The notes below the pieces were generated by a model, which was not told the DNA's origin, searched no databases, and saw nothing but the letters and a program-made list of their open reading frames with translations. The translations under genes and the position numbers were made by a program. DNA of 24,472 bases from a virus: the IMG/VR virus record IMGVR_UViG_3300030430_005231, positions 1 through 24,472 of that record; one strand, given 5' to 3'. Below, piece by piece: positions 3,634-20,321 of the stretch (the stretch's first letter is position 1; the number at the start of each line of letters is the position of its first letter).

Positions 3634-4632
3634 ATGGGTTTCAAGTTTCCAAATATTCGACCAGAAACGAAGGAGATTGTCGAACCCGATGATTTGAATC
3701 AAAATCTCAAACCCTTTGTGGATGAGATCAATGGCAATCTTACCCATGAAAATTTGTCTGATTTTGATTTGAATCAAGGCATGTTCGAAGACAACTCATT
3801 CAGTGATGTATTCCAATCATCGTTTGTGTCTGAAGGCGAGTTCGATGTTCTGACGAACGGATATCAATGTTCCAAAACGTCTCCGGGTTTCACGCGTGTC
3901 GATAAAGCAGGCAAAAAAATGCCATCAATTGACTTTATCGCTGATCGAGATGGCTACATCATTGTTGATTTTTTCTGTTCTTTTATTTGGCGTGGTAACG
4001 GACTTTTGGACAAGGAAGAAGCGAGTCAGTACGGACTTATCAAAGAACATTATCCTGTGACACACGCTGACGTCATTCATCACACTGATCAAACATCGGG
4101 TGGATGGATCGGAACAACTGGTTCAACCGCTACGCCCTTCGATGGAGTTCTAAAAGTATTTAGAAGTGGAAGCGACGATGATTCAGCAGGCTATTATACA
4201 TCGGTTTTCAAAACACAAGATTTCCCGCAGGGTAGATGGGTAATCGAATCTAATGATCGATTTGGTATCAAATTAAGAGTTTTGTCTAACGGTCACGAAA
4301 TTTGTGAATCTGGGTGGATTCGGAACGGCACCGATCGTAATTCGGTTTTTTTAACCGGTGTCCTTCCAGTTCGCGCTGGGGTCAATGAGATACGCAGTGA
4401 AGTTGCCGCAGCAATGATTGTAAACAATTTTGGAACGTCGACAGGTGTCCGAGCAAAGGAAGGAACGACCAAAGGAAAATTTTTCCCCAAATCGACTTTC
4501 TCCGCACGAGATGTTTTATTCCCGCTGCCCGAACAGAGAAAGATCAACTACAATCAAAATGTAGATATAACGTTGGGTATTGATTGTTCTGTTACTGCAT
4601 CAAACTTAGTTGTGCAATTTAGGAAGTGCTGA
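3634..4632 (+). CDS. Probable fibre/virion surface protein, first of three tandem paralogues
   Basis: This 332-residue product begins MGFKFPNIRP and soon carries IVEPDDLNQNLKPFVDEI, followed by a short polar segment. An acidic, asparagine-containing helix of this kind also opens the next two genes and is common at the N-terminus of phage minor structural proteins, where it would anchor or trimerise the protein. The rest is rich in aromatic residues and beta strands (GYIIVDFFCSFIW, GRWVIESNDRFGIKLRV, VLPVRAGVNEIRSEV) and ends in a strand-like VVQFRKC. There is no signal peptide or membrane segment. The start has an AGAGG ribosome-binding site at 3624-3628. It sits just after the nozzle-like gene, which fits a tail fibre or appendage. 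I recognise no specific family; host-binding function is inference. Confidence 0.5.
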   Translation: MGFKFPNIRPETKEIVEPDDLNQNLKPFVDEINGNLTHENLSDFDLNQGMFEDNSFSDVFQSSFVSEGEFDVLTNGYQCSKTSPGFTRVDKAGKKMPSIDFIADRDGYIIVDFFCSFIWRGNGLLDKEEASQYGLIKEHYPVTHADVIHHTDQTSGGWIGTTGSTATPFDGVLKVFRSGSDDDSAGYYTSVFKTQDFPQGRWVIESNDRFGIKLRVLSNGHEICESGWIRNGTDRNSVFLTGVLPVRAGVNEIRSEVAAAMIVNNFGTSTGVRAKEGTTKGKFFPKSTFSARDVLFPLPEQRKINYNQNVDITLGIDCSVTASNLVVQFRKC

Positions 4633-5600
4633 TGCCTTACATCAAAGTACCAGAATTCGAATCAAATAAAATTATCGACGCAGACGATTTCAATCGAGCA
4701 TTCGAGGCATTTGATAATTTACTTTTGGATGGCGAAAATTTTGCAGATGAAAGTTTAGGAATTGATCAAATTCCGAAAAAAATATCTTTGACGGAAACAT
4801 CAAAAATTGCAAAATCATCGTCCTCTTTCACAACCAAAAGCATTTCACAATCGTCATCAGCCGGGCTATCGGACCCTTTTCATGGTTTGCCGCCGACTTT
4901 TTCCGAACCTAGATTGACAAGTGTTAATTGTCCTAATTTGAATCGAATAACGTTACTAAATTTAGAAAAGGGCGATAAATTTATTATCCGAGCAAGTTGT
5001 GTCATTGATATTCCAGATGGCGGATGGCGCACCTTCTATGAAGGCATAGCCCCACGTTTCAAAATCGGTTTGGTACGCATGCCGGGGGAAACTAGCATCA
5101 CCGATGGGTCAGTAAATGAAAACACCTCTCCAATTCATTCAACGTTAGCTCATTATCGAATTACGTATACAGGAAAAGTGCCAAGCGCGTCATCGCTTTC
5201 CAAAGAAGCAAGTGATGCGGCAGGGATCGATGCCGGTCTTTGGAAATATCGGGATCGAACAGAGGATGCCCCGGATAATTACACCTACAGGGACACGCGC
5301 ACGGGTGGTGAAGATACTGCGGAAGCGCATAATCCCATAGGCGGCGGCAGCATGCCGTTTCAGGGATATCATAACTACACTGTTTGTTTTTTGTATGAAC
5401 ACCAAGACTCATCGATCACAGGAGCCGATACAACAAATTCCATTCAATCATTCAGTGTCATGTGTGCTTACGGATCGGCTAGGAATGGTGGACTCACTTC
5501 GAATACAGAAAGTGGCGGCGCTAAGGGCTGCGTCAATCCAGTCGAACAAGACGCAAGAATTCGAGAATTCAATTTATTTTGCTATCAGGTGAAAAACTGA
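4632..5600 (+). CDS. Probable fibre/virion surface protein, second tandem paralogue
   Basis: The product is 322 residues starting MPYIKVPEFES. I chose the ATG at 4632 over the GTG six bases upstream because AGGAAG (4621-4626) lies at good spacing and the ATG overlaps the preceding TGA by one base, the same arrangement as at the next junction. The N-terminal motif IIDADDFNRAFEAFDNLLLDG matches the acidic DxN helix in the neighbouring genes. After a serine/threonine-rich linker (residues about 45-85) the body is beta-rich and polar with many glycines and ends FNLFCYQVKN, resembling the terminal strand of its neighbours. The gene is AT-rich at its 5' end. Probably an appendage protein; no family recognised. 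Confidence 0.5.
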   Translation: MPYIKVPEFESNKIIDADDFNRAFEAFDNLLLDGENFADESLGIDQIPKKISLTETSKIAKSSSSFTTKSISQSSSAGLSDPFHGLPPTFSEPRLTSVNCPNLNRITLLNLEKGDKFIIRASCVIDIPDGGWRTFYEGIAPRFKIGLVRMPGETSITDGSVNENTSPIHSTLAHYRITYTGKVPSASSLSKEASDAAGIDAGLWKYRDRTEDAPDNYTYRDTRTGGEDTAEAHNPIGGGSMPFQGYHNYTVCFLYEHQDSSITGADTTNSIQSFSVMCAYGSARNGGLTSNTESGGAKGCVNPVEQDARIREFNLFCYQVKN

Positions 5601-6460
5601 TGCCTATTGATCCATCATTATTTACAAGTGTTTCAAGCGGCGATGTCGTTTCGGCCGAAGATATTCGTAATCGATTTCAAGATTTGGAGCGACTTGTAAA
5701 CGGCGGCATTGCGTTGATTGATCTTAAAGGTGGATCAAGTTTTACCGACGAAGAAAAAAAGATTTTCGGAACCAGACATATCGTACGACCCGAGTTTTAC
5801 TCAATAGCAAACACACGCATCATTGGAACTCCAGCGGACGTTTATTACCGGAATCGTTTTTTTTCATCTTTGAATCGATATGTGCGGCACGAAGTCACTG
5901 GAAATTATCAAACCGGCACCAATTCAGTAGATTCAAAGGTCCTTGATGCTCTCCCCGCTGAGTCTTGGACACCGATCGATGGAATGTCTGCGACCGTTAT
6001 TGTCAAAGGTAATTCCAATGTTGATGCCTATGTAAATGGGTCTCTATACGCGTTTGCAGCAGGTGGCAGTGATGGCATCAATACTTCATTGAAAGATCGA
6101 TTCAGTGATACGGGTGGTACTCCTGATACTAGTAAGGAAAACACTGAGCAGGAGGCTGCTTTCCGGCGCTGTAAACAATGTGGCTTGTTCAAAGCGTTTT
6201 TTATTTTGTATGTCGACAAAATGGACGGGAATGGGCCTCAACGTCAAAACGAAACTGAACGTCGCATCTTCAATCGAGGAGAAGGCAGTTATGAATTCCG
6301 TAAAACTCAGGTTTCTTTTGCGACAAAGATTGAATTGAGTCCCGGCACGAACAAAGTTTCATACAGGGTCTTGTATAGGATGCGTAATGACGAATCGGTT
6401 GCTTTCAATCATGTGTTTATCGACAATCGGAATTTCTTCGTTGATGTCCACTATAGATGA
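5600..6460 (+). CDS. Probable fibre/virion surface protein, third tandem paralogue
   Basis: This gene encodes 286 residues starting MPIDPSLFTSV. The ATG at 5600 is preferred to the in-frame TTG at 5579: it overlaps the upstream TGA and is preceded by AGGTG (5587-5591) at eight bases. The N-terminus contains DVVSAEDIRNRFQDLERLV, a third version of the motif seen in the two preceding genes. The C-terminal half has the alternating beta pattern YEFRKTQVSFATKIELSPG, then YRVLYRM and a final FFVDVHYR. These look like the outer strands of a beta-sandwich and resemble the ends of the two upstream products. Probably a virion fibre or surface protein; receptor binding is an inference from position alone. 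Confidence 0.5.
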   Translation: MPIDPSLFTSVSSGDVVSAEDIRNRFQDLERLVNGGIALIDLKGGSSFTDEEKKIFGTRHIVRPEFYSIANTRIIGTPADVYYRNRFFSSLNRYVRHEVTGNYQTGTNSVDSKVLDALPAESWTPIDGMSATVIVKGNSNVDAYVNGSLYAFAAGGSDGINTSLKDRFSDTGGTPDTSKENTEQEAAFRRCKQCGLFKAFFILYVDKMDGNGPQRQNETERRIFNRGEGSYEFRKTQVSFATKIELSPGTNKVSYRVLYRMRNDESVAFNHVFIDNRNFFVDVHYR

Positions 6461-6481: not shown

Positions 6482-6928
6482 ATGGCAGTTGGTGACTATG
6501 CATTGGCGGGCGGAAGTGGCGCACTGAGTGGTGCAGGCACGGGTGCTGCTATCGGCTCTGCTATTTTGCCGGGCGTGGGTACAGCAATCGGTGCTGCGGC
6601 TGGTGGGCTTCTCGGTGGTGCTCTGGGACTGCTTGGACAATCACAGGCCGATAAGCAAGCTGAAGAACAAAAACGACTGCAGCAAAAACAAACACGTCGT
6701 CAGAAAAACATTGCCGCAAAGCAAAGAAGTGTCGAGCGCCGGTCATTGGCTCAAAACAGAGAAGCCGCTGCACGAGCGGCAAAAGAGGGGCGAGATCTCG
6801 ATCCACCAAGAGTTGGCGGATCTCAGTTTGCTTTGATTCAGAGTATGGCAGTTGGATCGGGAAGCCCGTTCGATTCTTTTATTGAGCGGACCTATGGTCG
6901 ATCACAAACATCCGACCCAACAGTGTAG
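6482..6928 (+). CDS. Glycine-zipper small virion protein, probable ejection/internal protein
   Basis: The product is 148 residues. I place the start at the ATG at 6482, not the TTG three bases before, with GAGG at 6473-6476. Residues 10-52 form a glycine/alanine-rich hydrophobic segment with repeated GxxxG spacing (GAGTGAAIGSAILPG and GAAAGGLLGGALG). The rest is a charged, glutamine- and arginine-rich helix (residues 55-105). This two-part layout of a membrane-insertable glycine zipper followed by a coiled coil is typical of small podovirus internal or ejection proteins such as T7 gp14, and of many similar marine phage proteins. Its place just before a coiled-coil gene and large virion genes supports that role. 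It could instead be a small tail-associated scaffold; I recognise no exact family. Confidence 0.5.
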   Translation: MAVGDYALAGGSGALSGAGTGAAIGSAILPGVGTAIGAAAGGLLGGALGLLGQSQADKQAEEQKRLQQKQTRRQKNIAAKQRSVERRSLAQNREAAARAAKEGRDLDPPRVGGSQFALIQSMAVGSGSPFDSFIERTYGRSQTSDPTV

Positions 6929-6936
6929 GAGCAGTC

Positions 6937-7809
6937 ATGGTTGAACGACTTACAACAGAAGACATGCAAGCATTGAATTTGCAAGATGCTTTTGCCGAAA
7001 AGCAATACACCGAGGGCGTTGCGGCTGGAACCGGCCTCAAACTTGGCAACACCCTTTTCGACTACTTCGGTAACATGACCGCTGCGAAGCTGGCTGAAGA
7101 AGCAGCGAAACAAACAACGCGACGTGGCAAACGGATGCGTGCCGCTGCTGGTGCAGGTGCTGCTGAACGTTTGCAGGCTGCAAGAGGTCAGAAGCAGGCG
7201 CTTGCTCGTGACGTGGTGCAATCAGCCGCTACGCGTGCTGCCATGGATCCTACGGGAGCTTCGGCTGTTGAGTTTGCCCGGAGCGCACCATCGATCGTTC
7301 AAAGAGCCGGGGATGTATCTGCCGAGCAAACTGAAGAGATGAAAATTCAACTGGCTCAAGAGGCGGCTGCTGAGGAAACAATTGCAAAGGGTGAACAACA
7401 GCAGTTGTTGGCAAAACAGGCCAAGGCCAGAGAGCGATTGCGGCTTGGTCAGGAAGCGTTCAAGGCACTCGGTGAAGGAGCACAAGCGTTGAAACCTCGA
7501 ACGTTCGAGGCAAAACAGCAAGACATCGCTGCTCGTCAGGGAAAAAAAGTAGAACGACTTCAAGAAAAAATTGCAGGACGGCAAGAAAAGCTTGATGAAA
7601 GTGCGAGTGGGGTCCGACTCAAAGATCTGACCTCTCAACAAAGACGCTTGCAGGAAAAAAACGTCGCTGATTTTGCAAAATTAAATGAGGCAAAACGGAC
7701 TGAACGAGAAGCACTTGCTCGTCTCAAAGCAATCCAAGAGGCTGAGCGCAAAAAATTGCAACTCATGGGTGGAGTGTTGGCCGACCCTTTGACGCCCACG
7801 ACTGAATAA
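6937..7809 (+). CDS. Helical coiled-coil virion protein, probable internal/ejection component
   Basis: This gene encodes 290 residues. An AGGAG ribosome-binding site at 6927-6931 overlaps the upstream stop and is five bases from the ATG. Apart from the first 60 residues the sequence is almost wholly alpha-helical and highly charged: alanine/glutamine/lysine-rich heptads run from about residue 60 to 280 (for example AKARERLRLGQEAFKAL and KVERLQEKIAGRQEKLDES). No enzymatic motif, signal peptide or membrane segment was seen. The alanine-rich region at residues 63-75 may be flexible. By composition and by position between the glycine-zipper gene and the large lysozyme-containing gene, it is probably an internal virion protein taking part in genome ejection. 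The name of the family is not known to me. Confidence 0.45.
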   Translation: MVERLTTEDMQALNLQDAFAEKQYTEGVAAGTGLKLGNTLFDYFGNMTAAKLAEEAAKQTTRRGKRMRAAAGAGAAERLQAARGQKQALARDVVQSAATRAAMDPTGASAVEFARSAPSIVQRAGDVSAEQTEEMKIQLAQEAAAEETIAKGEQQQLLAKQAKARERLRLGQEAFKALGEGAQALKPRTFEAKQQDIAARQGKKVERLQEKIAGRQEKLDESASGVRLKDLTSQQRRLQEKNVADFAKLNEAKRTEREALARLKAIQEAERKKLQLMGGVLADPLTPTTE

Positions 7810-8345
7810 TGCCGTGGATTGATGGCACATACGTGCCCAATCGTAGGGCAGATACAACCAGTGAGATTGTTTCCACAAACAGGATTTCTGTCGTTACGCC
7901 TGTGGAACTCGAAGAAAGTCTGATTGCGGATGACTTTTTCACAGAATCCGTGGTTTTCAATAAGTTTTCCACAGGTTCTTTCACAGCTTCCGTGATCAAG
8001 AAAATCGTGCCTGCAGGCGTTCTTTCAGTTGCGAGTGGACTGAGAGCGTTGTTTGCACCCGGCTTCGTCAATACAAACTTGATTGAGGACGGTGCCGTTA
8101 CCGGGGCAAAAATGACCAATGCCATCAAGGTTGCCTTGATTGACGGTGGTGCCGCTGGCGTTCATACGGTTACGGGGATTCGAATCGGTGATGAGTTGAT
8201 TTCTGTCTTGGAGCAGAATGGCACCTCAGGATTGTTGACCGATTTGACCTCTGAGTTTTCAATTATCAAGGCCGATACAATCACCAATGCCGGTGGCACG
8301 GCAACGAGCAGCGACAAGCTTGTAGTATTGTATCTAAGCAAATAG
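7809..8345 (+). CDS. Small virion structural protein of unknown family
   Basis: This is a 178-residue product whose ATG overlaps the preceding TAA (TAATG); there is no clear ribosome-binding site, so translation is probably coupled. The middle holds LIEDGAVTGAKMTNAI, a pattern frequent in phage minor structural and fibre proteins, followed by a beta segment with GIRIGDELISVLEQ. The C-terminus (ADTITNAGGTATSSDKLVVL) is a polar beta-strand module that I associate with short virion proteins of marine phages. There is no membrane segment or enzymatic motif. It sits inside the probable ejection-protein cluster, so a virion role is likely, but whether it belongs to the capsid, tail or internal set cannot be told. 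Confidence 0.4.
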   Translation: MPWIDGTYVPNRRADTTSEIVSTNRISVVTPVELEESLIADDFFTESVVFNKFSTGSFTASVIKKIVPAGVLSVASGLRALFAPGFVNTNLIEDGAVTGAKMTNAIKVALIDGGAAGVHTVTGIRIGDELISVLEQNGTSGLLTDLTSEFSIIKADTITNAGGTATSSDKLVVLYLSK

Positions 8346-8355
8346 CGAGGACAAA

Positions 8356-11300
8356 ATGTCTCAATTCAACGAGCAGATGAATAAAAAAATTCTTGGTTCG
8401 GCGGCTTTGTTTATCAAAGATGTGGAGCGTCGATATCAGGAGCCTGTCCAGCAAATCCTCGCCATCAACAAAGAAATTGCCACTCTGACCAATCCCAGAA
8501 ATATTTCACGCGCACGTCGTTCGGGGGCCGGTGCATATACACAGTTGTTGCGTTTTTATGTTCAACAGCAAGATAAAGTACGAGAAAAAAATCAAGATCT
8601 TTTCAACAAAATTGATCAGAAGCTTACCTCAGCACAAATTCAGAGAGATACTTTATATAATGAATTTACCGGGAATACTCAAAATATCACCGAATTGAAT
8701 AAATTATTGAAAGAGGTAAACGAGGAGGGGGTTCGGATAGACAATATGAGTATTGTCGAAAAGAAATTGGAAGACTTGGACTTAATTAAAGACGGCAAAG
8801 CGACGATGGGTGCTGTTCTTGCTGTTCAATTTTTGTTGAATAGAACCGACAAGCCGACAAATAGACCTGAATTACAAAAATATGGATACAAGTTGCTCAG
8901 ATCAGCGAGGGCAAGCCTTCCAGAAGATTCATTGGCACTCTTGTTCACCTCGGATTTGAACACTGAAGAAATGCCACAAGGGTTCGATCTTAATACCAAA
9001 ATATCTCAAATGTTTCCAATCTTCGACCCAGACACCGAGCAGGGTCAGTCTGAAAGAAATAAATTCAAAAATTTAAAAAATCTGAATCAAAACCTTCGAA
9101 ACCACTTCAAATTGGACTCATCGGATGTTCTGAACTTTGTTGATTATACGAATGAGATTGAGGCACTCAGAGGAATTGTATTCGGCAGGCTAGACCCTAA
9201 TTCAATCCCGACTGCGTCTTCCACAGCCGAACAGAAGTTACAATTTGTCGAATCAGTGCCCGGGCTGACAATCGCAAATGATCGTGTGATCGTCAGTAAG
9301 GATGCGACTGCCACTGAAAAAGCGCAAGCCGAAAAATTATTGACGAAGGCTGTCGGCAAAAAAAATCCAACGTTCGATGAGTTTATGAATTCCAGCACGG
9401 TCAAAACTGCCGTGGCGGGGTTCGAAGACGGATCAACAGCCGTCGCCAAGATGGAGGAGCGTGCGGCAGAACTCGAAGAAAGAAAAAAGGGCCTGACTGA
9501 TCTTGCGATTGCTGAAGGTAGACTGTCTGCTGCCGAGCAATCTGTGCTCACCAGCCCGATTTTCCCCCGACCCGGCTTTCGTCGTACTGCCCGTTTTGGT
9601 CTTATAAAAGACACTCAATTCGCTGATGAACGACTCAGATTTGAGTTCCCAGAGGAACAAATTAAAGCCACAAACGTGGGCACATCAGGTGTCCCGATCG
9701 TTCCTGCAACCATCAACCGAGTCAAAAAAGCCTTTGACAGAGCAAACACGGCTGCGGACGATCAAAAGCAAATGACCTTCCAAGAATTGACAGACGTTGT
9801 GGAAGGCTTCAAGCGATTGCCAGAGGATGTTCAAAGCAAATTCCCTCAACAATTTCTGACCGCTGTGTATCAGTTCGGCAGTGGACTGGACGGGAAAGAT
9901 GACACTCCTGAGCAGGAGTTGATGCGCTTTGCCGACGCAGTACGAAGCTTGGATAACACTGCAATCACGACACAAACAATCGGTGAATACATTGCCGATG
10001 TCGGCAAGGACCCTCAACAGACTGCGTTGACTGCTACAGCCGACATGGTCGAATTCCTCAACCACCCAGACTCCGTTGGTGAGGGTTCAAGTTTGGTCGG
10101 TAGGAGGCTGCCTGTCGGAGCCGTAGCCAGCGAGTTTTTGGATACGATGAATAAAATCGGCGAAGGAACTGCCAATAAGTCACAGCTTATTGATGTGTTT
10201 GATGATGCCCAACGTTTCGCGCAAGGCCCAAGACCAGAATTTTTTGATACAGATACATACGGTCGATATGAGTCTGTCGATCGATTTGTCGCTGCGATGG
10301 ACGCTGAACCGGGAGAACGAGCGACACAACCTGATGCACTTCCGGCATCGCCAGATGAACCAGATGCTCTGCCCGAAAACCCGTTCCCAGAGGGCAGTCG
10401 TAAAGCACGCGAGTTTGATCGGATTGCTCAGGATAGAGACCGTCAAATTATCAATGAAGCAGAAGCCGCTGCTTTGGTGGCCCGTCTGGAACAGGATGAC
10501 GATCTTGATGAGACTGAGATCGATCGCCAAGCGATTCAAACGGCCACAAGCCCTTCTGGGGCTTCTTTGCGTACAGGCACCGTTGATGACCCTTCTGATG
10601 AACTTGCTGCAGAGGACGCTGAACGTCGAGCGAGGAGTGAGCGTCCAGCCATCACGGGGACCGACGACACAATGGCAGATCGAGTGCTGAGAGATAGCCT
10701 TCGCGGATCAGATCAGCCTGCGCCTGATGCAGAAACAGATGCGGCCCAAACTGCTGCTGGAAAAGATGACCTACAGGTATTGCAATCCGGCTCCCGAGAT
10801 CCTTTCGATGCAGGATTGCCTGTACCTGAAAAATCGGACAGCGAAGACAAGACAAGTGATCTACAAGTGCTCAAACCCGGCTCACGAGATCCATTCGACG
10901 CAGGATTGCCTGTGCCATCACAGGATGATCTCAAAATGAATGAACGTCGAGACATTGCGGATCGTGCTGCCGAACAAAACTTGCAGACATTGCGTTCAGA
11001 TGTCATCGACATGATGAAAACACAGCCGGGCAAAATCATTCAACGCATGAAAGACTTGGGTTTTGATGACGTTCAAATCGAAAATACATTCGCAAGCGCG
11101 GGTGTTTCAATGGACGAATTGGACAGGCAAGCCGAAGCGAATCTCGCGTCCCTGAGCAAAGAGGTCATTGACCTAATGAAATCCGATCCGGGCAGAATGA
11201 AAAATAGAATGAGAGAGTTGGGTTTCGATCAAAATCAAATTCGTAGAACATTTGAAATTGCTGGCGTATCACCGGACATTGAAGTCCCAGAAGTGGATCC

Positions 11301-11790
11301 GAGCAAACTTCAATCCACCGATGTAGCTCGAATAATCCGTGATGAGTTCGCAAAAGATGGTTTCAGTCAAAATCAAATTCAGGCTTTGATGGCTACAGCA
11401 ATTCAAGAAAGCTCACTGAATCCTTTGGCGAAAAACCTCAAAGATGAACGGTCTCACGGCATTTTTCAATTCAACCAAGATCGTGGTGAAGGCGCGGGTA
11501 TTGCCACTAAAGATTTGCAGAACCCATACTTTCAAATCAATGCGACAAAAGAAGCGATTGCCAACCGTCCCGAGTTGTCCTTTTTTCGCGACAACCCGGA
11601 TGCATCACCCGAGGAGTTGATTCAAGATCTGACAAGTAACTTCATTAGACCAAAAGATTTTGACACCCCAGAGGTACAAGCGAAATATACAGGTCGGATT
11701 CCGAAGGCAGTCAGCATCATTCAGTCTCTCGATGAAGAACCGGTGCAGGTTGGAGGTGATGAAAAACCAGTTTTGGAAGCAGGGCCATGA
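8356..11790 (+). CDS. Large virion protein with C-terminal lysozyme/transglycosylase-like domain
   Basis: This gene encodes 1144 residues. The start has CGAGG at 8346-8350. The N-terminal part (1-300) is mainly helical with coiled-coil character; residues about 650-830 form an acidic, proline- and alanine-rich, low-complexity linker. Two internal duplications follow: a 20-residue unit (DNA 10768-10827 and 10858-10917) and a 50-residue helical unit (10960-11109 and 11122-11271). The C-terminal domain from about residue 985 has QALMATAIQESSLNP with Glu1018 as likely catalytic acid, and SHGIFQFNQ at 1033-1041, the pattern of lysozyme-like/SLT-fold muramidases. The stop overlaps the start of an M23 peptidase gene. 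T7 gp16 carries a transglycosylase domain in an internal protein, so by analogy this product may be delivered into the periplasm to open the wall. Domain call good; exact subfamily uncertain. Confidence 0.6.
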   Translation: MSQFNEQMNKKILGSAALFIKDVERRYQEPVQQILAINKEIATLTNPRNISRARRSGAGAYTQLLRFYVQQQDKVREKNQDLFNKIDQKLTSAQIQRDTLYNEFTGNTQNITELNKLLKEVNEEGVRIDNMSIVEKKLEDLDLIKDGKATMGAVLAVQFLLNRTDKPTNRPELQKYGYKLLRSARASLPEDSLALLFTSDLNTEEMPQGFDLNTKISQMFPIFDPDTEQGQSERNKFKNLKNLNQNLRNHFKLDSSDVLNFVDYTNEIEALRGIVFGRLDPNSIPTASSTAEQKLQFVESVPGLTIANDRVIVSKDATATEKAQAEKLLTKAVGKKNPTFDEFMNSSTVKTAVAGFEDGSTAVAKMEERAAELEERKKGLTDLAIAEGRLSAAEQSVLTSPIFPRPGFRRTARFGLIKDTQFADERLRFEFPEEQIKATNVGTSGVPIVPATINRVKKAFDRANTAADDQKQMTFQELTDVVEGFKRLPEDVQSKFPQQFLTAVYQFGSGLDGKDDTPEQELMRFADAVRSLDNTAITTQTIGEYIADVGKDPQQTALTATADMVEFLNHPDSVGEGSSLVGRRLPVGAVASEFLDTMNKIGEGTANKSQLIDVFDDAQRFAQGPRPEFFDTDTYGRYESVDRFVAAMDAEPGERATQPDALPASPDEPDALPENPFPEGSRKAREFDRIAQDRDRQIINEAEAAALVARLEQDDDLDETEIDRQAIQTATSPSGASLRTGTVDDPSDELAAEDAERRARSERPAITGTDDTMADRVLRDSLRGSDQPAPDAETDAAQTAAGKDDLQVLQSGSRDPFDAGLPVPEKSDSEDKTSDLQVLKPGSRDPFDAGLPVPSQDDLKMNERRDIADRAAEQNLQTLRSDVIDMMKTQPGKIIQRMKDLGFDDVQIENTFASAGVSMDELDRQAEANLASLSKEVIDLMKSDPGRMKNRMRELGFDQNQIRRTFEIAGVSPDIEVPEVDPSKLQSTDVARIIRDEFAKDGFSQNQIQALMATAIQESSLNPLAKNLKDERSHGIFQFNQDRGEGAGIATKDLQNPYFQINATKEAIANRPELSFFRDNPDASPEELIQDLTSNFIRPKDFDTPEVQAKYTGRIPKAVSIIQSLDEEPVQVGGDEKPVLEAGP
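10768..10827 (+). repeat. 20-residue coding repeat, copy 1
   Basis: It encodes DLQVLQSGSRDPFDAGLPVP. The second copy begins exactly 90 bases further on; 18 of 20 residues match, and the nucleotide differences are mainly at third codon positions. It lies in the acidic linker of the lysozyme-containing virion protein. Confidence 0.85.
10858..10917 (+). repeat. 20-residue coding repeat, copy 2
   Basis: It encodes DLQVLKPGSRDPFDAGLPVP. Two residues differ from copy 1, with a ten-residue spacer (EKSDSEDKTS) between the copies. Confidence 0.85.
10960..11109 (+). repeat. 50-residue helical coding repeat, copy 1
   Basis: It encodes 50 residues from DRAAEQNLQTLRSDVIDMM to SAGVS. It shares with copy 2 the pattern DR.AE.NL..L...VID.MK..PG....RM..LGFD..QI..TF..AGVS. 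Confidence 0.85.
11122..11271 (+). repeat. 50-residue helical coding repeat, copy 2
   Basis: It encodes 50 residues from DRQAEANLASLSKEVIDLM to IAGVS, separated by four residues (MDEL) from copy 1 and placed just before the lysozyme-like domain. The copies have diverged at both amino-acid and silent positions, so the duplication is old. Confidence 0.85.
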
Positions 11791-12287
11791 TCGACAAAGA
11801 TGTGGCAGCACCTACTGAATACATGGTGATCACGTCTCATATGGGCCCACGAGATGGACAGCATCACGACGGACTCGATCTACGTGCTCGTCAGGGCACA
11901 GACATCAAAGCATTTAAATCCGGCGTTGTTTTTGAGGTCAAACGTTCGGATGCCCCGGATGATCCAGCGGGCAAATACGTCAGCATTCTTTGCCAACGAC
12001 CGCCTGAAATTCATAAATACTTTCATATGTCCGCAATCGACCCTGATTTAGAGGTTGGTCAGATGTTGAATGCAGGAGATGTTTTTGCATTGGCTGGTAG
12101 CACAGGGAACTCAAAAGGCCCGCACCTTCATTTCGAAATTCATCGTCGCAACATCGAAGGATTTTTTGTTCCAATCAACCCGCTGTTTGCCTACCCCGAT
12201 CATTTTGGCAAATACATGGACAAAGAAACGGGTCAACCCGTTAATATGGACTCAGTCTTGAAGTCCAATATCAGAGTTGTGGACTGA
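11787..12287 (+). CDS. M23-family (LytM-like) peptidoglycan endopeptidase
   Basis: The product is 166 residues with a full set of M23 motifs. His27 and Asp31 (in HHDGLDLRA) give the first HxxxD zinc pair. His80 in YFHMS is the expected third histidine, and His113 and His115 in GPHLHFEI form the terminal HxH. The beta-rich core (GKYVSILCQ, LNAGDVFALAGSTGNS) has the typical strand order. There is no signal peptide or transmembrane segment, so it is not an exported lysis enzyme by itself; entry as a virion component or action at the late stage are both possible. The ATG (11787) overlaps the stop of the preceding gene. Cleavage of peptide cross-links would complement the muramidase-like domain of that product. 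The family call is strong; the role in entry or lysis is inference. Confidence 0.85.
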   Translation: MIDKDVAAPTEYMVITSHMGPRDGQHHDGLDLRARQGTDIKAFKSGVVFEVKRSDAPDDPAGKYVSILCQRPPEIHKYFHMSAIDPDLEVGQMLNAGDVFALAGSTGNSKGPHLHFEIHRRNIEGFFVPINPLFAYPDHFGKYMDKETGQPVNMDSVLKSNIRVVD

Positions 12288-12311: not shown

Positions 12312-15300
12312 GTGTCAGAAAAGTCAGAGACCTTTAGTTTCGATGATTTTTACGTCGAGTTCGATTTCGAAAAAGCAAATCCGCAAACACCCGATGTATC
12401 CGACATTCTCGGCACAAACATTGGGCTCGACCAAAATCAAGCGGTGCTCGACTCTGCTCAACAAGAAATCTTGGAGGAAGATCGAGAAACGATCGAATCC
12501 TCCGGTCTGGATTACAACGAGATTGTAGACAATCTACCTACACCGATTGACGAGGATGAAATCTCACCCGGTCGGCAGGTTTTCCCAGTCACTGAGCCGG
12601 AAGATCGAGATCATTTCGATGCATACGATGAATATGATGCTGCAATCAGGGCAAATGTCACAGCGTATAAAGAGTTGCTCGATCAACAAGGTATGACGGG
12701 GGCAGAAAAGAAAAAAGAGTTGGCTGCATTTACGGCTCGTATGTATGCCGGGATTGCTCCCACAGAAATGGATGGATTGTTCGGCACACCGAATACCGTC
12801 TTGATTTCAAGAAACCCAACCGCAATGACTGCAAAAATTGCATACGAGGCTGAAAAACTTCGCATGGCTGAGGAGGACAATATCTTTGAGTCCTTCTACG
12901 GGGCCTTGATCGCAGGACCCACTCCCGATCAATACATGGAAGTGCAGTCTATGGTCGATAACGGAGTGTATGAGTTCGACACGGAGTTTTTGAAGCGTGT
13001 GGATGAGTTGACCAGCCAAGGCAAGTCCAAAACAGACGCCCGAGAGCAAGCTTACCAAGAGTACACAGAGCGCGAGGACAAACCACCGTATAAGTTTGCC
13101 TTGTCCGATGCAGAGAAGCAGGAGCGAGAAAAATACATGCTCTTGGGAACGGACACGTTTCAGGAGGTCATTACCACCGGCGCTGCTTTAGCAATGGGTG
13201 CTGGTGCGGCTGCTACGACATTCAAAACGGTTCCGGGTCCCCTCCCTGTCAAAGCTACGATTGCGGGAACCGCATTTCTTGGCACAACAATGATGGGCAA
13301 AATGGGCACCGAAACGTTGTTCAATTTGCGTTTCGGCGCTGAGGACTTGCCTTATGACGTACCAATGTTCAAGACAGGCAAAACGGCTAAAGGAGTGTTC
13401 GATGTAGCTACATCGATGTCGGACGCTGTAACGGGAGTCCCAACGATGCGGGCAACACTTAAGATGTTGCCTGAGGCGAGTCGTGCGTATTTTACGACCG
13501 CAATTGTCGATGCAGCAGTCAAACTTGGTTTGGCCGATACAATTGCTGAAAGTCCAAAATTTCAATCGTTCGTACAGTCTGTGGCTGAAAACCCGGCGTT
13601 ATCTCAGCGAGCCTTGGAAGAGCGATACCTTCAATCCACCAATCCGGCTTTGCACGGTGCGGTGAAAATGCTTCAGGTCGTTTTTCATCCGACTGTTCAA
13701 AAAGAATTGAAAACAGCCGCTGAAAAGTTCGGGTTGGACAAAAATTCAAGGTTGGGTGAATACTTCGAGTCCGCCGCAAAATTTAATTTAAATATTTTAG
13801 GTGTTAATGAGGATTTGATTTCTCCTGAGGAGTCCTTGGATCGCAGAGCTTCAATGCTGCAAGAAATCCTGCAAGAGATTGCGGGTACTGAAGACTTCAG
13901 AAGAGCCAAGCAACTTGAACGGTTGCAGTCCTACAATCGAATGAAAAAAGAGGTCGATGAGGAAACAAAGCTGCAGGCTCTGGATTACGATGACGATCTT
14001 TTTTACAAAGAGTTTCGCAACTTCCGAGACAACCCCGAGAAGTACTCTGATTTGGACGAAAAACTGTTTGTTAAAAACTTCATCGATGGCCGTGTTTGGA
14101 ACACCGCAAATACGGCTTGGAGAGGAAAACAACCATCTGTAAAGAACTTCAGAACATTCATTAACACCCACTATGCCATGGGTGGCGAAGATCCTGATCC
14201 TGAAACGTATCCAGAACAATGGGGTTTGTTTCGATCTGTCATTGATGGGGAGTCGGATGAGCAAATTCAAGAGAGATTGAATCGAGTTCCATTCGGTGTG
14301 CTGGCATCCTTTGAGTTTTCCAATCGAAACCGAATTTGGGAGAGACCATCATTCGATGAAATGAAATCATTCGCTCTCAAAGTGCTGAAATACAAAGAAG
14401 AAGAGCGAGGTCAACAAGCATCACAAATTGCACAAAAGGGACTTTCGCGGAGACTTTTCAAGCCCGTCGAAGAAAAAGGCTACTCGTTGATGATGAAGCC
14501 CACTTTGAATTATCAGATCATGTCGAAATTAAATATGGCTGACGCTATGATCGATGAATTGCCCATTGTCACCCCAGACTTTGCGGTGCCGTATCTCGAA
14601 CGACTCGGTTTTCCCAAGGGCAGATGGGGTACGGGTGCAGGTTTGGACTATGCATTGGGCACGGGTCTCCGAGACGGCATGGATGATTACTGGGCTCGTG
14701 TGCGGTCCAAAGGCCGCATGTTGACCGGCGGTGGCATGATGGGACCGGAGGAAGTTCTGTTGGCAGCGGGCTTTCAAAGAGATGACCGTGAAATGATGTT
14801 TACGCTGTTCAACGCTGGGGTGGACTTTGCCCCTAAAGAAGCGATTGCCATCAAAGGAGTTGCCACTCCGATTCAGGCAGGATTCGCGGCATTAAATGCT
14901 AGCCGAAATAGAATGTTCAAATCGATTGGCGGTCAAGCCCAGAAAAACGCAGCACGAATCGAAATTATGAATGGTATTCAACGAATCAAATCGGGTGATT
15001 TGACGGTTCAATACCATAAAAATTTGGTCAACGCCTTTTATGAAGAGATTGCTGCGGGCCGAAACCCACTGCGGTTTTTAACGAGGGCAGAACAAGATTT
15101 GCTTGAGGACGCGTTTATTCTCGCTGGTCGCAACCCTGACCATGGTAAAGCTGCCATGCAGAAGGCAACAAAGGCCGCACGTAACGTCAAAGGCATGTCA
15201 CGTCAGTCCGTCATGGATGTGGGCGACAACGAGTATGCAGCCTTGCGATCCTCGAAACCCTACATTCGATTGGAAAAAGACATAGACAATTTGGTCAATG

Positions 15301-18300
15301 CAAACGTGATCGACCTCAAATACGCGTCCGAACTGTTGAGTATGATTGAGCACCAATCAATCGTCGCCGCTCGTGCTCCAAGTTCACGGTTCAAAAGTCC
15401 AGTCGACGTGATTCGAAATACGCGTGTCACGTACAACAAGATTCCGGGTGCAGGCATCAATCCGACAGTTCGTGTCGTAGACGCTGACAACTTACCAGTC
15501 GGCAATCGGTCTGGGGTACCCAAAGGGTATTTCGAGTTTGATGAACGCACCGGAAAATCCATCATCAACTTTTTCCGTGATGGAGACATCGATTCTGTCT
15601 GGAAGTTGAACGGTGTGTTCATGTCTCACCTTTTGGGTGATCGTTTTGCACAAAGAACGTTCCGATCCTTCGACCATACGTTTGACTCGAACGGAAGAGT
15701 CAAATTGACCGCGAGGGGTAAACAACAATTTGGAGAGGCTTGGAATTATTATCGACGGACCCAAGACAACACGAACGGATTTATTCGTCGTTCGTTCGAT
15801 GAGTTGTGGCTCTCGATTCACAATTTTTGGTCTAAGCTTCGCCGCAAACCATATTTGTTGGATCCAGAAGTTCGGATGTTTTGGGATCTGGAGTTTGGTG
15901 TTGCACCCACAGAAAAAAGGGTCGTGCGTTCTGCACAGACGGCAGCAGCTTTTCGACGAAGTCGACAGCATTTCGAAACGGATACTCCGGGCGGAGACAT
16001 TTCTGCTTTGCAGAGATCCCGAGAATCGATGGCAAAAAACGTGGGTATCACAGAAGAGGTGGTACGCAGTTTATTGGGCGATCGTAAGACGACAACCATT
16101 CGAAATGTATTCGACGAAACAATTGGTCGCACCCGCAGAGTCGTTGAGCAAAAGTATCTGCCTCGTGACTACGATGCCGTCGAGGCAACCGTTCAAATCT
16201 TGGCTCTCATCAAAAGCGCAGACTTCCGGAAACGAGCCCAAAAAAACAATTATTCGACTATAGGAACTCGACGATACCATGTGTCGGATCAGGTGTTGCC
16301 GGGTTTGGTTCAACGGGTCAATGATCGCTTGAATGCGGCCATGGGCGAGAAGTTTGTGTCCACAAGGAAAAAACTGTTTCAAGTGGGACGAGACGGAAAA
16401 AACGATTTGAAGGATCCGGCAACGTATCCAACTGGTGTGACGCAACGAGATGTCGCTAATTTCATCGATAGAATGCAGGCCATGAAGCCAGATGCTGACG
16501 GACTGACCACTGCTTTAGCGCAAGATTTTTATGTCTTAGAGCCACGAACACAAGCCGGGTTCAAGACGCTGCTTCAAGAAATCGGCAATCAACCTGAAGC
16601 GGATTTTTTGCCGATTCAAATGTTGGACCCAAATGCGAACTTTCGAATTTTGTCCAACCTTGAATACCGAAAGGTCAATCAGGTCTTGCAAGATATTGAG
16701 GCAACACCATTAAACAGGCGAAGCCGAAACACTGTCGATCCGGGTTTTCGAGAAACAGTCGAAGCCACTTTGTCAAGCACTCCCGCTTTGCGAGCCTTCG
16801 TTACTGCATGGAATGCTGTCACTGGATTTGCTGGCAAGCGAGCTGCAATAAAGAAGACGGCTTATGATCCGGGTTTAGCAGAAATATTTGAGGGCGGTGG
16901 TCGTAAATCAATCAACGTTGGTAAGGATCTGATCGAACTAAGCAAGACTAAAGATTTTTCCAATATTGATATTCTTGGTGAGTTTTTCAAAAGAGTAATT
17001 GATATTAGTGTTCCAAGGGTAAATTTGAGTCTTTTGAACGATTTGTATCAAATTGTTGGTGAGTTGGGGGGATTATTCGACACGTTAGAATATAGAGCAG
17101 GTGTAACAAAAACGAATCGGAAAGCTCAATCTGGTTCACAAAGTCCAATTTTATATGATGTATCGACTGAATCTGTACAGGTAAATTACATCATCTCGAA
17201 AACAGGAGTCATCCAAGAACTGCTTGATGGTGTTTATGGAATGACGCCAGCAGAGCGCGAGGCGCTAAACATCGTGCGGACTGTGGGTGTTCGTCAACGG
17301 TCTGGTGTGAAACTGAGTGATTTGGCAGCAGATGAGATCGCTGAACTGGCAGACGCAATCAGCGTCTTGCATTTAGGGTTGAAAGTAAAAGAAGATTACA
17401 TTTTGACCACCGGCGAAAACCTGCTCAAGCGATCACTTGTCATGCAAGAAGTTCCGGTGACTGGTTACGGAAGAGAGGGTCGCCGCAAAATTTTGTACAA
17501 CAACTACCGTGCATATTTCGAGGGTGACACGGACTATTTGTTTATGCAGCCGGAAATGAACATCCGTTATGAAAGAACAAAAGGCGTCGATACAAAAGCA
17601 AATATTAGATTCAATAAACGTCTCGAAAAACTGGGAATTAATATTAATTCCACAGAAGCAAATGTTATTCGATCGATTCACAAAGCAGTGAAAAAACAAG
17701 CCGGTTCGAATCTGGCAGATGACAACTTGAGAATGATCTCAATGTTGACGTTGATGAAGCTTGACGAAGTCCAAATGGAAATTGCGGATGAGTTGGTGCG
17801 ATATGGATACACCGCAAGCAAACGTAAAATATTCGGTAACATCGATATTACTGGCCGAATCAGCCTGAATCGTGAGCGGTACCTCGATCGAGTCATGTTC
17901 TATTTGCATAGTGTCATGGATACCTCCGACTGGGTACGCATTACGGTCGATGAGCAAGGCAAGAGAGTAAAGGGCGCCCCGATTAAGTACCCCGCGAAAC
18001 CAGAGGAAACGTTGTATGGCAACACCGAAACTCTGAATCGTAAGTTTGATAACAGTAAGCAGTTTCGAGACATCGACGTTCAAGCCAAGCAAGACGCGCA
18101 TGAAATCATTGCCCGAGCGGGTATGCGAGTCGAGCAAGGCAAGATGGAAATCGTCAACATTGGTGACAAACAATTTTTGTTGCCGCGAAGCATGTTTGAC
18201 TTTTTCAAAGATTATCAGTTGCAGATGTTCCCCAATGCACGATTCAAGAAGGTTTGGGGTAAGGGTGGATCTGGAGAGTTTTTCCTCAAGGGTGTAGATC

Positions 18301-20321
18301 CCGAAGGTGCAGTAGTTCGTCAACTTGAGACTGCAATCGCGGCATTGGCTCGACTGGCCGGTATTTTATTCTCTCCCACCGCTTTTTATTCTGGACTGTT
18401 GATTGGCACCGGTGGCCTTCCGATGATTGGATACGGCGTCGGTGTTTTCATTGGTGGTCTGAGTCAGTTGCATTTGGGCAAGGGCATGGCCGCTGTTGTT
18501 CGCGATGGATTGCAGGGCCCTGTGGTTCTTGCCGAAACACTTGGTGCTCAAACAGCGCGTTCGGGGGCTCGACTGTTGCCTGAGAACATGAGGGCACCGT
18601 TGTTGAGTCTTGCCGACAGTTTGCAAGCAAACACGGGGTTCACAGCAGGAGTACTGGCGAGGTTGCACGGTAAAGATTTTGCAGTGCCCGAAACAAAGCC
18701 GTTGATCCTCCCTGATGGTCGGGTGTTCACTGCAGACGAAATTGCAAACTCTGTGGGTCGATACGGATGGCGCAGCGCCATGGTTGACGCTTTTCAGGAT
18801 CCCCGCATTGTTGACCAGTTCTATGAAAGATTCACCAAAGCCAATCCCGTTTACGTGACCACAGCCGTATCCACGTTGTTGGGTCTAACAATCCCGGGCG
18901 CAGGCGTGGGTTTGTCAGCGGCGTTTGGATTTGGCTTGGGGTACATTCTCAAGCCCGGAAACTTGTTCTCCAAGGCTCATCGTTTTTATCGAGAGTCGTT
19001 TTCTGCTATCGATTCTTTCCTTCGAGTAAAACTACTGGTCGATGAATTGAAGGCTGGCAAGAGTTTGGAACAAGCGTCCATCACTGTGCGAGATGTCGCT
19101 CTTGATTACAGCAACTTGAGTGACGCAGAGAAATCGTACTTCGCTCGTTACTTTGCATTTTATGCATATTACTCTCAAGCGATGAAATTGTTTGTCGAAG
19201 CGACAATCAAGAATCCTCAACGAGTTATCAATCAACTAAAATTTATTCAAAAAACTCAACAAGAATACGCAGATGATCCTCAGGCTTCTGAGTTCCTTGC
19301 ACCTTGGGATAGATATCGTGCATTTCTGCCATTTAAAATTGGTGGTGAAACGTATCGTCCGCCGTTCCTTATTTCTGGAGACTCCGCTGGGCTGTTGTAC
19401 AAAGCCTTGGGTATGATTCCTCTCCTCAACAGTGGTGAGGATGTAAAGAAAAACTTCCGATCGTTGATCGGTATGACCAACCCTCTTGTCCCGTTGTTTT
19501 TGAAATACAGCTACGACATCGACGAAATTAGAGGGGCACCCCTTTCACGTTCATCATTTGTTGTTCCCTATGACTTCATCATGTGGGATCTGCGATCGTT
19601 GGGCGGGACTTTTTACGAGTTGCTCGACATCGAGCATATTGCGCCAGAAGACCTTCGATTCAAAGATGAAGATAAAGAAAAAACCAGAATATCTCTTGGT
19701 CGAATCGAACACCCCGGAAGGGGCGTCTACATAGCCAACAATCGTGCGATGTATTTGTACCTGTTCGACTACCTTCAATCTCCATTGACGGGTCGCATGG
19801 GTGCAAACTTGCAGGCGCTATCGAGAGCAAACGTAAACGGTCAAAATTACTTTTTGGATTTGCTGGAACAAGCAACGGATGATGGCAAGCCGATTCTCGG
19901 CACCGTTGGACCTCTGTTGGCGTTGAATTTGATTCGGGAAAAAGACCCCGGATACTATGATTTCGAATCTCAACAGTTTGTCGTAGACCCCACAGACCCA
20001 TTGGTTGCTCCTCTTGGAGAAAAAGGAACGCTTCTTCGCAACAAACAAATCACCACAGCCTCGTTGGATTTGCTGTTGTCGCAAGGAAGAGCTTTCGAAA
20101 AAGACGGCAAAGTGTTTGTGTACACCAATCAATTTTATCCCGAAGAACTGGGTAGAATATTTGGTTTCACTCGCGCACCGCAGTTTGATTCCAACAAACA
20201 AATGGGACGCATGATTCGATCAAGGCTGCCGTTTTTGAAAGAAAACTTGAAATCGATAGAAGCAGATTTGGAAAAGATCAAGCGCCAAGGCCGTCTGCCC
20301 AAGAAACCTGATTCCGATTAA
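12312..20321 (+). CDS. Giant (2669-residue) internal virion / ejection-type protein
   Basis: This is a single 8-kb frame with a GTG start and no internal stop. The N-terminus is acidic (FDDFYVEFDFEKANP). A glycine/alanine-rich hydrophobic segment lies at residues about 282-333, and two further ones at about 2005-2058 (GLLIGTGGLPMIGYGVG) and 2180-2214 (STLLGLTIPGAGVGLSAAF), which could enter membranes. The rest is long helical charged sequence. Near residues 2250-2314 is SITVRDVALDYSNLSDAEKSY followed by an aromatic helix ARYFAFYAYYSQAMKL and KNPQRV; I have seen this layout near the C-terminus of very large phage virion proteins, including those with polyvalent-associated domains. It follows the muramidase-like and M23 genes and the glycine-zipper gene, so an ejection-channel role similar to the large T7-like internal proteins is likely. 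No polymerase, helicase or nuclease motif could be found. The region 16921-17180 is unusually AT-rich. Confidence 0.5.
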   Translation: MSEKSETFSFDDFYVEFDFEKANPQTPDVSDILGTNIGLDQNQAVLDSAQQEILEEDRETIESSGLDYNEIVDNLPTPIDEDEISPGRQVFPVTEPEDRDHFDAYDEYDAAIRANVTAYKELLDQQGMTGAEKKKELAAFTARMYAGIAPTEMDGLFGTPNTVLISRNPTAMTAKIAYEAEKLRMAEEDNIFESFYGALIAGPTPDQYMEVQSMVDNGVYEFDTEFLKRVDELTSQGKSKTDAREQAYQEYTEREDKPPYKFALSDAEKQEREKYMLLGTDTFQEVITTGAALAMGAGAAATTFKTVPGPLPVKATIAGTAFLGTTMMGKMGTETLFNLRFGAEDLPYDVPMFKTGKTAKGVFDVATSMSDAVTGVPTMRATLKMLPEASRAYFTTAIVDAAVKLGLADTIAESPKFQSFVQSVAENPALSQRALEERYLQSTNPALHGAVKMLQVVFHPTVQKELKTAAEKFGLDKNSRLGEYFESAAKFNLNILGVNEDLISPEESLDRRASMLQEILQEIAGTEDFRRAKQLERLQSYNRMKKEVDEETKLQALDYDDDLFYKEFRNFRDNPEKYSDLDEKLFVKNFIDGRVWNTANTAWRGKQPSVKNFRTFINTHYAMGGEDPDPETYPEQWGLFRSVIDGESDEQIQERLNRVPFGVLASFEFSNRNRIWERPSFDEMKSFALKVLKYKEEERGQQASQIAQKGLSRRLFKPVEEKGYSLMMKPTLNYQIMSKLNMADAMIDELPIVTPDFAVPYLERLGFPKGRWGTGAGLDYALGTGLRDGMDDYWARVRSKGRMLTGGGMMGPEEVLLAAGFQRDDREMMFTLFNAGVDFAPKEAIAIKGVATPIQAGFAALNASRNRMFKSIGGQAQKNAARIEIMNGIQRIKSGDLTVQYHKNLVNAFYEEIAAGRNPLRFLTRAEQDLLEDAFILAGRNPDHGKAAMQKATKAARNVKGMSRQSVMDVGDNEYAALRSSKPYIRLEKDIDNLVNANVIDLKYASELLSMIEHQSIVAARAPSSRFKSPVDVIRNTRVTYNKIPGAGINPTVRVVDADNLPVGNRSGVPKGYFEFDERTGKSIINFFRDGDIDSVWKLNGVFMSHLLGDRFAQRTFRSFDHTFDSNGRVKLTARGKQQFGEAWNYYRRTQDNTNGFIRRSFDELWLSIHNFWSKLRRKPYLLDPEVRMFWDLEFGVAPTEKRVVRSAQTAAAFRRSRQHFETDTPGGDISALQRSRESMAKNVGITEEVVRSLLGDRKTTTIRNVFDETIGRTRRVVEQKYLPRDYDAVEATVQILALIKSADFRKRAQKNNYSTIGTRRYHVSDQVLPGLVQRVNDRLNAAMGEKFVSTRKKLFQVGRDGKNDLKDPATYPTGVTQRDVANFIDRMQAMKPDADGLTTALAQDFYVLEPRTQAGFKTLLQEIGNQPEADFLPIQMLDPNANFRILSNLEYRKVNQVLQDIEATPLNRRSRNTVDPGFRETVEATLSSTPALRAFVTAWNAVTGFAGKRAAIKKTAYDPGLAEIFEGGGRKSINVGKDLIELSKTKDFSNIDILGEFFKRVIDISVPRVNLSLLNDLYQIVGELGGLFDTLEYRAGVTKTNRKAQSGSQSPILYDVSTESVQVNYIISKTGVIQELLDGVYGMTPAEREALNIVRTVGVRQRSGVKLSDLAADEIAELADAISVLHLGLKVKEDYILTTGENLLKRSLVMQEVPVTGYGREGRRKILYNNYRAYFEGDTDYLFMQPEMNIRYERTKGVDTKANIRFNKRLEKLGININSTEANVIRSIHKAVKKQAGSNLADDNLRMISMLTLMKLDEVQMEIADELVRYGYTASKRKIFGNIDITGRISLNRERYLDRVMFYLHSVMDTSDWVRITVDEQGKRVKGAPIKYPAKPEETLYGNTETLNRKFDNSKQFRDIDVQAKQDAHEIIARAGMRVEQGKMEIVNIGDKQFLLPRSMFDFFKDYQLQMFPNARFKKVWGKGGSGEFFLKGVDPEGAVVRQLETAIAALARLAGILFSPTAFYSGLLIGTGGLPMIGYGVGVFIGGLSQLHLGKGMAAVVRDGLQGPVVLAETLGAQTARSGARLLPENMRAPLLSLADSLQANTGFTAGVLARLHGKDFAVPETKPLILPDGRVFTADEIANSVGRYGWRSAMVDAFQDPRIVDQFYERFTKANPVYVTTAVSTLLGLTIPGAGVGLSAAFGFGLGYILKPGNLFSKAHRFYRESFSAIDSFLRVKLLVDELKAGKSLEQASITVRDVALDYSNLSDAEKSYFARYFAFYAYYSQAMKLFVEATIKNPQRVINQLKFIQKTQQEYADDPQASEFLAPWDRYRAFLPFKIGGETYRPPFLISGDSAGLLYKALGMIPLLNSGEDVKKNFRSLIGMTNPLVPLFLKYSYDIDEIRGAPLSRSSFVVPYDFIMWDLRSLGGTFYELLDIEHIAPEDLRFKDEDKEKTRISLGRIEHPGRGVYIANNRAMYLYLFDYLQSPLTGRMGANLQALSRANVNGQNYFLDLLEQATDDGKPILGTVGPLLALNLIREKDPGYYDFESQQFVVDPTDPLVAPLGEKGTLLRNKQITTASLDLLLSQGRAFEKDGKVFVYTNQFYPEELGRIFGFTRAPQFDSNKQMGRMIRSRLPFLKENLKSIEADLEKIKRQGRLPKKPDSD

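Follow-up and report, generated by a model that had tools for sequence, protein, structure and literature searches.

In T7-type phages, the ejection genes form an operon in which gp14 and gp15 are followed by a larger gp16; membrane segments are general among gp16 homologues, which span 609-1337 aa, peptidoglycan hydrolase domains are exchanged between gp16 and gp15, and gp16-like proteins are usually assigned via synteny (PMC8954989). In phage N4, gp50 begins with an N-terminal domain (NTD), in which membrane helices are predicted at 224-278; a polymerase follows at 1007-2102, then an HExxH subdomain (C1), and finally the large, helical C2, for which no relatives are known (PMC12633501). T7 gp16 is 1318 aa long and the N4 vRNAP 3500 aa. 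The HExxH subdomain of the latter is fused to the polymerase, which makes the roles of the two hard to separate.

The window analysed here, which is the whole of its source record, is a virus fragment of 24,472 bases. It encodes a giant protein whose layout, composed of an N-terminal half, a zincin-like domain and a helical C-terminal half, resembles the plan of the N4 vRNAP minus the polymerase; the same layout without a polymerase suggests that an ejection scaffold can exist on its own.

The giant gene and its neighbourhood

The frame at 12312-20321 on the + strand starts with GTG, a few bases after a purine-rich GGTGGAG, encodes 2669 aa and contains no internal stop; the ORF list gives the same coordinates, and the uninterrupted 8-kb frame described in the earlier note is therefore borne out exactly. 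Since homologues on independent contigs also maintain a single open frame (2479-3676 aa, 24-48% identical to the window protein), the frame is not a product of chance and, by this comparison, is a genuine, well-conserved gene.

Neither the window DNA nor the giant protein matched any of 50,697 phage records, and a scan of the protein against one genome for each of 84,980 species was equally negative. The first homologues were obtained through scans with the window's nozzle, its M23 protein and one region of the giant, which led to syntenic IMG/VR contigs; full-length homologues were then found by searching the records behind these contigs, and one further scan added more. The family comprises about 15 members, found here in uncultured IMG/VR phage contigs only, with lengths of 2479, 2484, 2518, 2548, 2551, 2572, 2575, 2590, 2611, 2688, 3441 and 3676 aa in addition to fragments. 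Scanning with the C-terminal alignment of the family yielded only one extra contig, which lacks the zincin region. Pfam and PHROGs returned chance-level matches for the giant, and a PDB profile search gave none.

The genes of the window run in the order adaptor, nozzle, three fast-changing proteins, gp14-like protein, two small proteins, 1144-aa protein, M23 peptidase, giant and fibre-like genes. The assigned features are as follows.

3-1343, + strand: adaptor-like protein (Pfam: SU10_adaptor, PF24175, E 1e-6), its 5' end cut by the contig edge
1340-3631, + strand: tail nozzle-like protein (PHROGs: phrog_511, E 2e-21; phrog_3287)
6482-6928, + strand: gp14-like Gly-zipper protein (PHROGs: phrog_805, 'internal virion protein', E 0.0014)
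8356-11790, + strand: protein of 1144 aa in the gp15 position, with C-terminal Phage_lysozyme2 (Pfam: PF18013, E 3e-8, residues 990-1122)
11787-12287, + strand: M23 endopeptidase of 166 aa (Pfam: E 1e-19)
12312-20321, + strand: probable giant ejection (internal virion) protein in the gp16 / N4 gp50 position (ORF list, homologues)

The giant thus lies after the gp14-like and gp15-like genes and before the tail fibres, the placement of a gp16-like gene, with two peptidoglycan hydrolase genes, the lysozyme-bearing protein and M23, immediately 5' of it. Gene order and hydrophobic segments together indicate that it is probably the largest ejection protein, of gp16 or N4 gp50 type, of a short-tailed phage, and the suggestion that it is an ejection protein is well supported by its position and by its neighbours (adaptor, nozzle, gp14-like, lysozyme-bearing gp15-like, M23, fibres). 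The size of about twice that of T7-like internal proteins, remarked upon earlier, holds for the T7 type (609-1337 aa) but overlooks the 3500-aa N4 vRNAP, a known giant of the same slot.

M23 is a gene of its own in the window (8356-12287 region) and in close relatives; in L011, L022, L026, L034, L038, L041 and L099 the 1144-aa homologue carries it as a C-terminal fusion, which connects these genes with one another. Between the nozzle and the ejection genes (3634-6460), three successive fast-changing proteins have no significant family match, and their identity to relatives drops to about 21-37%, while the nozzle keeps more than 45%. The 178-aa protein at 7809-8345 is unusually conserved, being 88% identical in L018 and about 50% identical in the most distant contigs. 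The listed ORF starts at 5579, 6479 and 20792 are probably too early: in the first case relatives start at ATG 5600, in the second ATG 6482 comes right after the listed TTG, and in the third relatives start near residue 40.

Three relatives of 73-75 kb were also read, two of which have short terminal repeats; one of the three encodes terminase, major head protein, RecE/RecT, helicase and primase, and also a second giant, 2243 aa long (L117:4614-11345; record G008:64614-71345). This second giant lies outside the ejection module, matches a ParB C-terminal domain (phrog_2579) and has the appearance of a classical polyvalent protein.

Domain layout, zincin-like domain and ARFMG linker

Within the giant, the following features were delineated.

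12312-15452, + strand: N-terminal half (residues 1-1047), comparable in size to NTD plus linker of the N4 vRNAP (alignment)
13167-13349, + strand: N-terminal hydrophobic Gly-rich region, residues 286-346, with a counterpart in most relatives (hydropathy)
15444-15470, + strand: linker preceding the zincin-like domain (around residue 1049), site of ARFMG and of inserts in relatives, both absent in the window (alignment)
15489-15911, + strand: zincin-like metallopeptidase domain in decayed form, covering residues 1060-1200; no other block is better conserved (alignment, model)
15603-15617, + strand: KLNGV at residues 1098-1102, where five relatives have HENGH (HExxH) (alignment)
15723-15725, + strand: Q1138, in the place where intact relatives have the E of GHEQFAEAW, presumably the third zinc ligand (alignment)
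18330-18479, + strand: hydrophobic Gly-rich pair towards the C-terminus (residues 2007-2056), with strong conservation (FYTGLLIGTGGLPM..) (hydropathy, alignment)
18855-18959, + strand: third hydrophobic Gly-rich segment, residues 2182-2216 (hydropathy)
19056-19241, + strand: C-terminal module LDYSNLSDAEK..FAFYAYY..NP.R, residues 2249-2310, common to the L105 protein and, weakly, to C-termini of N4-type vRNAPs (profiles)

Two sequence features singled out by the earlier note recur here, namely three Gly-rich hydrophobic segments, located at 286-304 (weak, mean KD 1.36), 2007-2056 and 2182-2216, and a DYSNLSDAEK-type motif near residue 2270, located at 2265-2274. The segments, judged as membrane-spanning solely from hydropathy, have counterparts in most relatives. 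The unusually long channel that they were proposed to form finds no specific support: the segments are conserved, yet two of the three are close together near the C-terminus, and comparable predicted helices are present in the non-tunnel protein of N4.

Identity of the window protein to its relatives is 37-60% in residues 1060-1200, as compared with 20-42% in residues 300-1047 and 23-51% elsewhere. In this best conserved block, five of the 15 relatives (L081, L082, L085, L086 and L097) carry an intact HENGH with a downstream E, reading LWHENGHFMA and then E within GxEQFA(E/D)AW. The window protein has no HExxH, with KLNGV in its place, and other broken forms in the family are KMEGH, QNDGH, SANAD, SADSQ, YENGH and QANGH. 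An exact-pattern search with HENGHFM for further intact members returned the same five. When the tree was built without the zincin block, members with intact HENGH fell in each of the two deep clades; judged from this distribution the site is ancestral and was lost independently at least five times.

Two AlphaFold models, of 1081 and 1110 residues and with mediocre pLDDT of 66 and 57, were obtained. The model places strands, a helix with the HENGH site, a hairpin and a helix with the second site in succession, with moderate confidence in this part, and this order fits that described for the zincin domains of phage polyvalent proteins (PMC5512222). Structure prediction, proposed earlier as a check, gave no reliable structural match, as Foldseek found nothing significant and VIA nothing reliable with these large and weak models. 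The zincin region matched no relevant Pfam peptidase model at E up to 1, and comparison with the N4 C1 profile was negative both ways. Motif conservation and the modelled order make a zincin domain in residues 1060-1200 a strong inference, though short of a demonstration. The five intact relatives are predicted to have an active Zn peptidase there, which is presumed dead in the window protein, where the zinc ligands are lost. The description of the giant as having no identifiable enzyme holds for Pfam and PHROGs searches but is incomplete, as a decayed metalloprotease motif emerges once relatives are aligned.

The motif ARFMG lies about 70 aa before HENGH in four of the five zincin-intact members (L081, L082, L085 and L086; L097 retains ARF only) and in none of the ten with a broken zincin. 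Fisher's exact test gives 0.004 for sequences that are related, and a crude branch count 9e-5; the association concerns few, related sequences and was noticed post hoc. Particularly informative are L086 and L096, which are about 95% identical, with 138 differences over 2572 residues. Only eight of these differences fall in residues 940-1160: five affect ARFMG or its immediate flanks (TARFMGDM to AARLIDDV), and another converts the first His of HENGH to Y.

We read ARFMG as a candidate site of self-cleavage that disappeared along with the protease; docking of a pro-segment on the active site would explain the co-loss equally well. Taken further, it may be proposed tentatively that the internal zinc protease of giant ejection proteins cuts its own chain at the ARFMG linker, and that protease and site disappeared jointly on at least five occasions, so that members such as that of the window are single chains in which the pseudoprotease is purely structural. 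If true, this would give a DNA-ejection machine a maturation switch that is built in and can be dispensed with. The main value of the family lies in its natural set of protease-plus and protease-minus variants, including the nearly identical pair, for testing the role of the zincin in DNA ejection, and in a specific, cheap test for self-cleavage.

That both patterns are accidental, the domain being no zincin and the co-loss reflecting shared ancestry and loose alignment of the linker, seems unlikely to us. The missing profile match to known zincins would agree with such an explanation, as would the reliance on 15 related sequences and a post-hoc test, but two deep clades have HENGH in identical form, along with a downstream E located on a predicted helix, and the sister pair L086/L096 changes both sites in a near-invariant stretch.

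Two relatives carry inserts directly between ARFMG and the zincin, of 785 aa in L082 (residues 1035-1819) and 989 aa in L081 (residues 1069-2057). In their clade the zincin is intact in both members with an insert and broken in all four without one, a pairing which, as a suggestion from sequence, would suit a protease freeing its cargo; in the other clade, intact zincins are present without inserts. The L081 insert adds a phrog_2563 domain (E 2e-15), apart from which the inserts of L081 and L082 had no Pfam, PDB or phage match; this includes a 179-aa piece of the L082 insert searched against the PDB and the L082 insert searched against phage records. That the inserts are a polymerase was rejected, as they did not match that of N4. 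The stretch GIDNKVISFMLLAAGRTDVIVIDR in these inserts is reminiscent of a helix-hairpin-helix DNA glycosylase signature. A polyprotein-like virion component, the alternative offered in the earlier note, is backed indirectly in relatives by the intact HExxH, the co-lost linker motif and the 785-989 aa inserts in two of them, but not in the window, where the presumed protease is dead.

Comparison with N4 vRNAP, T7 gp16 and polyvalent proteins

Like N4 gp50, the window giant is the last and largest gene of its ejection cluster, has predicted membrane helices in its N-terminal half, and carries the position of an HExxH domain (intact in five relatives) followed, after about 1150 residues, by a weakly matching C-terminal motif; HExxH and this motif are 1158 residues apart in N4, as against 1152 in the window. 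The relatives' genomes of 73-75 kb are also N4-like in size. The N4-type motif profile ranks true family members, at the correct position, above all shuffled sequences, and the family motif profile retrieves several vRNAPs at the correct position, with some decoys mixed in lower down; individually these matches are weak, with a best E of 0.007 in a small, decoy-laden set. When whole profiles were compared with N4 by hhalign, the best alignment fell at the C-terminal motif, in the expected place, with a score that was not significant and no higher than that of an unrelated alignment. Unlike N4 gp50, the window giant has no polymerase domain, its zincin sequence is not alignable to C1 by profile, its zinc ligands are lost, about 360 residues follow the C-terminal motif (about 55 in N4), and peptidoglycan hydrolases adjoin it.

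With T7 gp16 and gp16-like proteins the giant shares operon order, hydrophobic segments and a presumable inner-membrane role. It differs in being about twice their size, in having no N-terminal transglycosylase, the hydrolases residing in two upstream genes, and in showing no detectable sequence similarity to T7 gp16; neither the C-terminal motif nor the zincin profile gave a match to it.

The shared layout and motif, combined with the absence of a polymerase, make it most likely that the giant works like gp16 and gp50 in ejection yet is not a vRNAP. We consider it quite probable that the giant serves a short-tailed phage as its largest ejection protein, performing the job of T7 gp16 or N4 gp50. 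It would probably be packed in the head and threaded out after the gp14-like and gp15-like proteins, ahead of the DNA. These two proteins and the M23 peptidase would open the outer membrane and peptidoglycan, the hydrophobic segments of the giant would anchor it in the inner membrane, and its helical C-terminal half would help to take in DNA. In intact relatives, a zinc-binding zincin may cut the chain at ARFMG in the linker just before it. In the window lineage, zinc ligands and ARFMG are gone and the fold region is highly conserved, so that the giant would remain one chain, with the domain kept as structure.

An improbable alternative is that the injected giant is a polyvalent effector serving mainly early takeover or counter-defence in the cytoplasm, its zincin and inserts hitting host targets or releasing effector pieces. 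Like phage polyvalent proteins with a zincin MPTase (P1 DdrB and others), the giant is of virion type, has an HExxH domain in relatives and may process itself; the zincin is the commonest domain of such proteins, with a proposed processing or effector role (PMC5512222), and the inserts of L081 and L082 would also be in keeping with it. The window giant, however, has no effector domain recognised by Pfam or PHROGs, no array of unrelated enzyme domains and no Pfam MPTase-type match, and its protease is decayed. Most of the conservation falls in the zincin-like and membrane-helix regions, and the separate 2243-aa ParB-domain giant of a complete relative fits the effector description better.

Far less credible is a genuine vRNAP homologue with a polymerase domain too diverged to be recognised, even though the slot is the same and the size class, the zincin-to-C-terminus layout and the genome size are similar. 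A single-subunit RNA polymerase fold, which by the earlier note would have altered the assignment, was sought and not found: the polymerase profile scored at decoy level in all family members, and a search through the three 73-75 kb relatives gave nothing, while the N4 positive control matched. Moreover, the N-terminal half of the giant is about the size of the N4 NTD alone, and the inserts do not align to polymerase. The identification of the giant as a vRNAP was therefore rejected. A tape-measure protein of a long-tailed phage is likewise very improbable, as the length, helicity and Gly-rich hydrophobic segments of the giant, and the match of its Gly-zipper and lysozyme neighbours to tape-measure families as well, are set against a short-tailed-type adaptor and nozzle upstream in the same module, in which no tail-tube or chaperone gene was recognised.

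The giant also shares its C-terminal module with a 1154-aa protein from a podovirus-like contig of 42.7 kb (L105). Unlike the giant, this protein is of ordinary length, and no zincin region was found in it; the module lies at its residues 850-921 and matches the family profile with an E of 6e-17.
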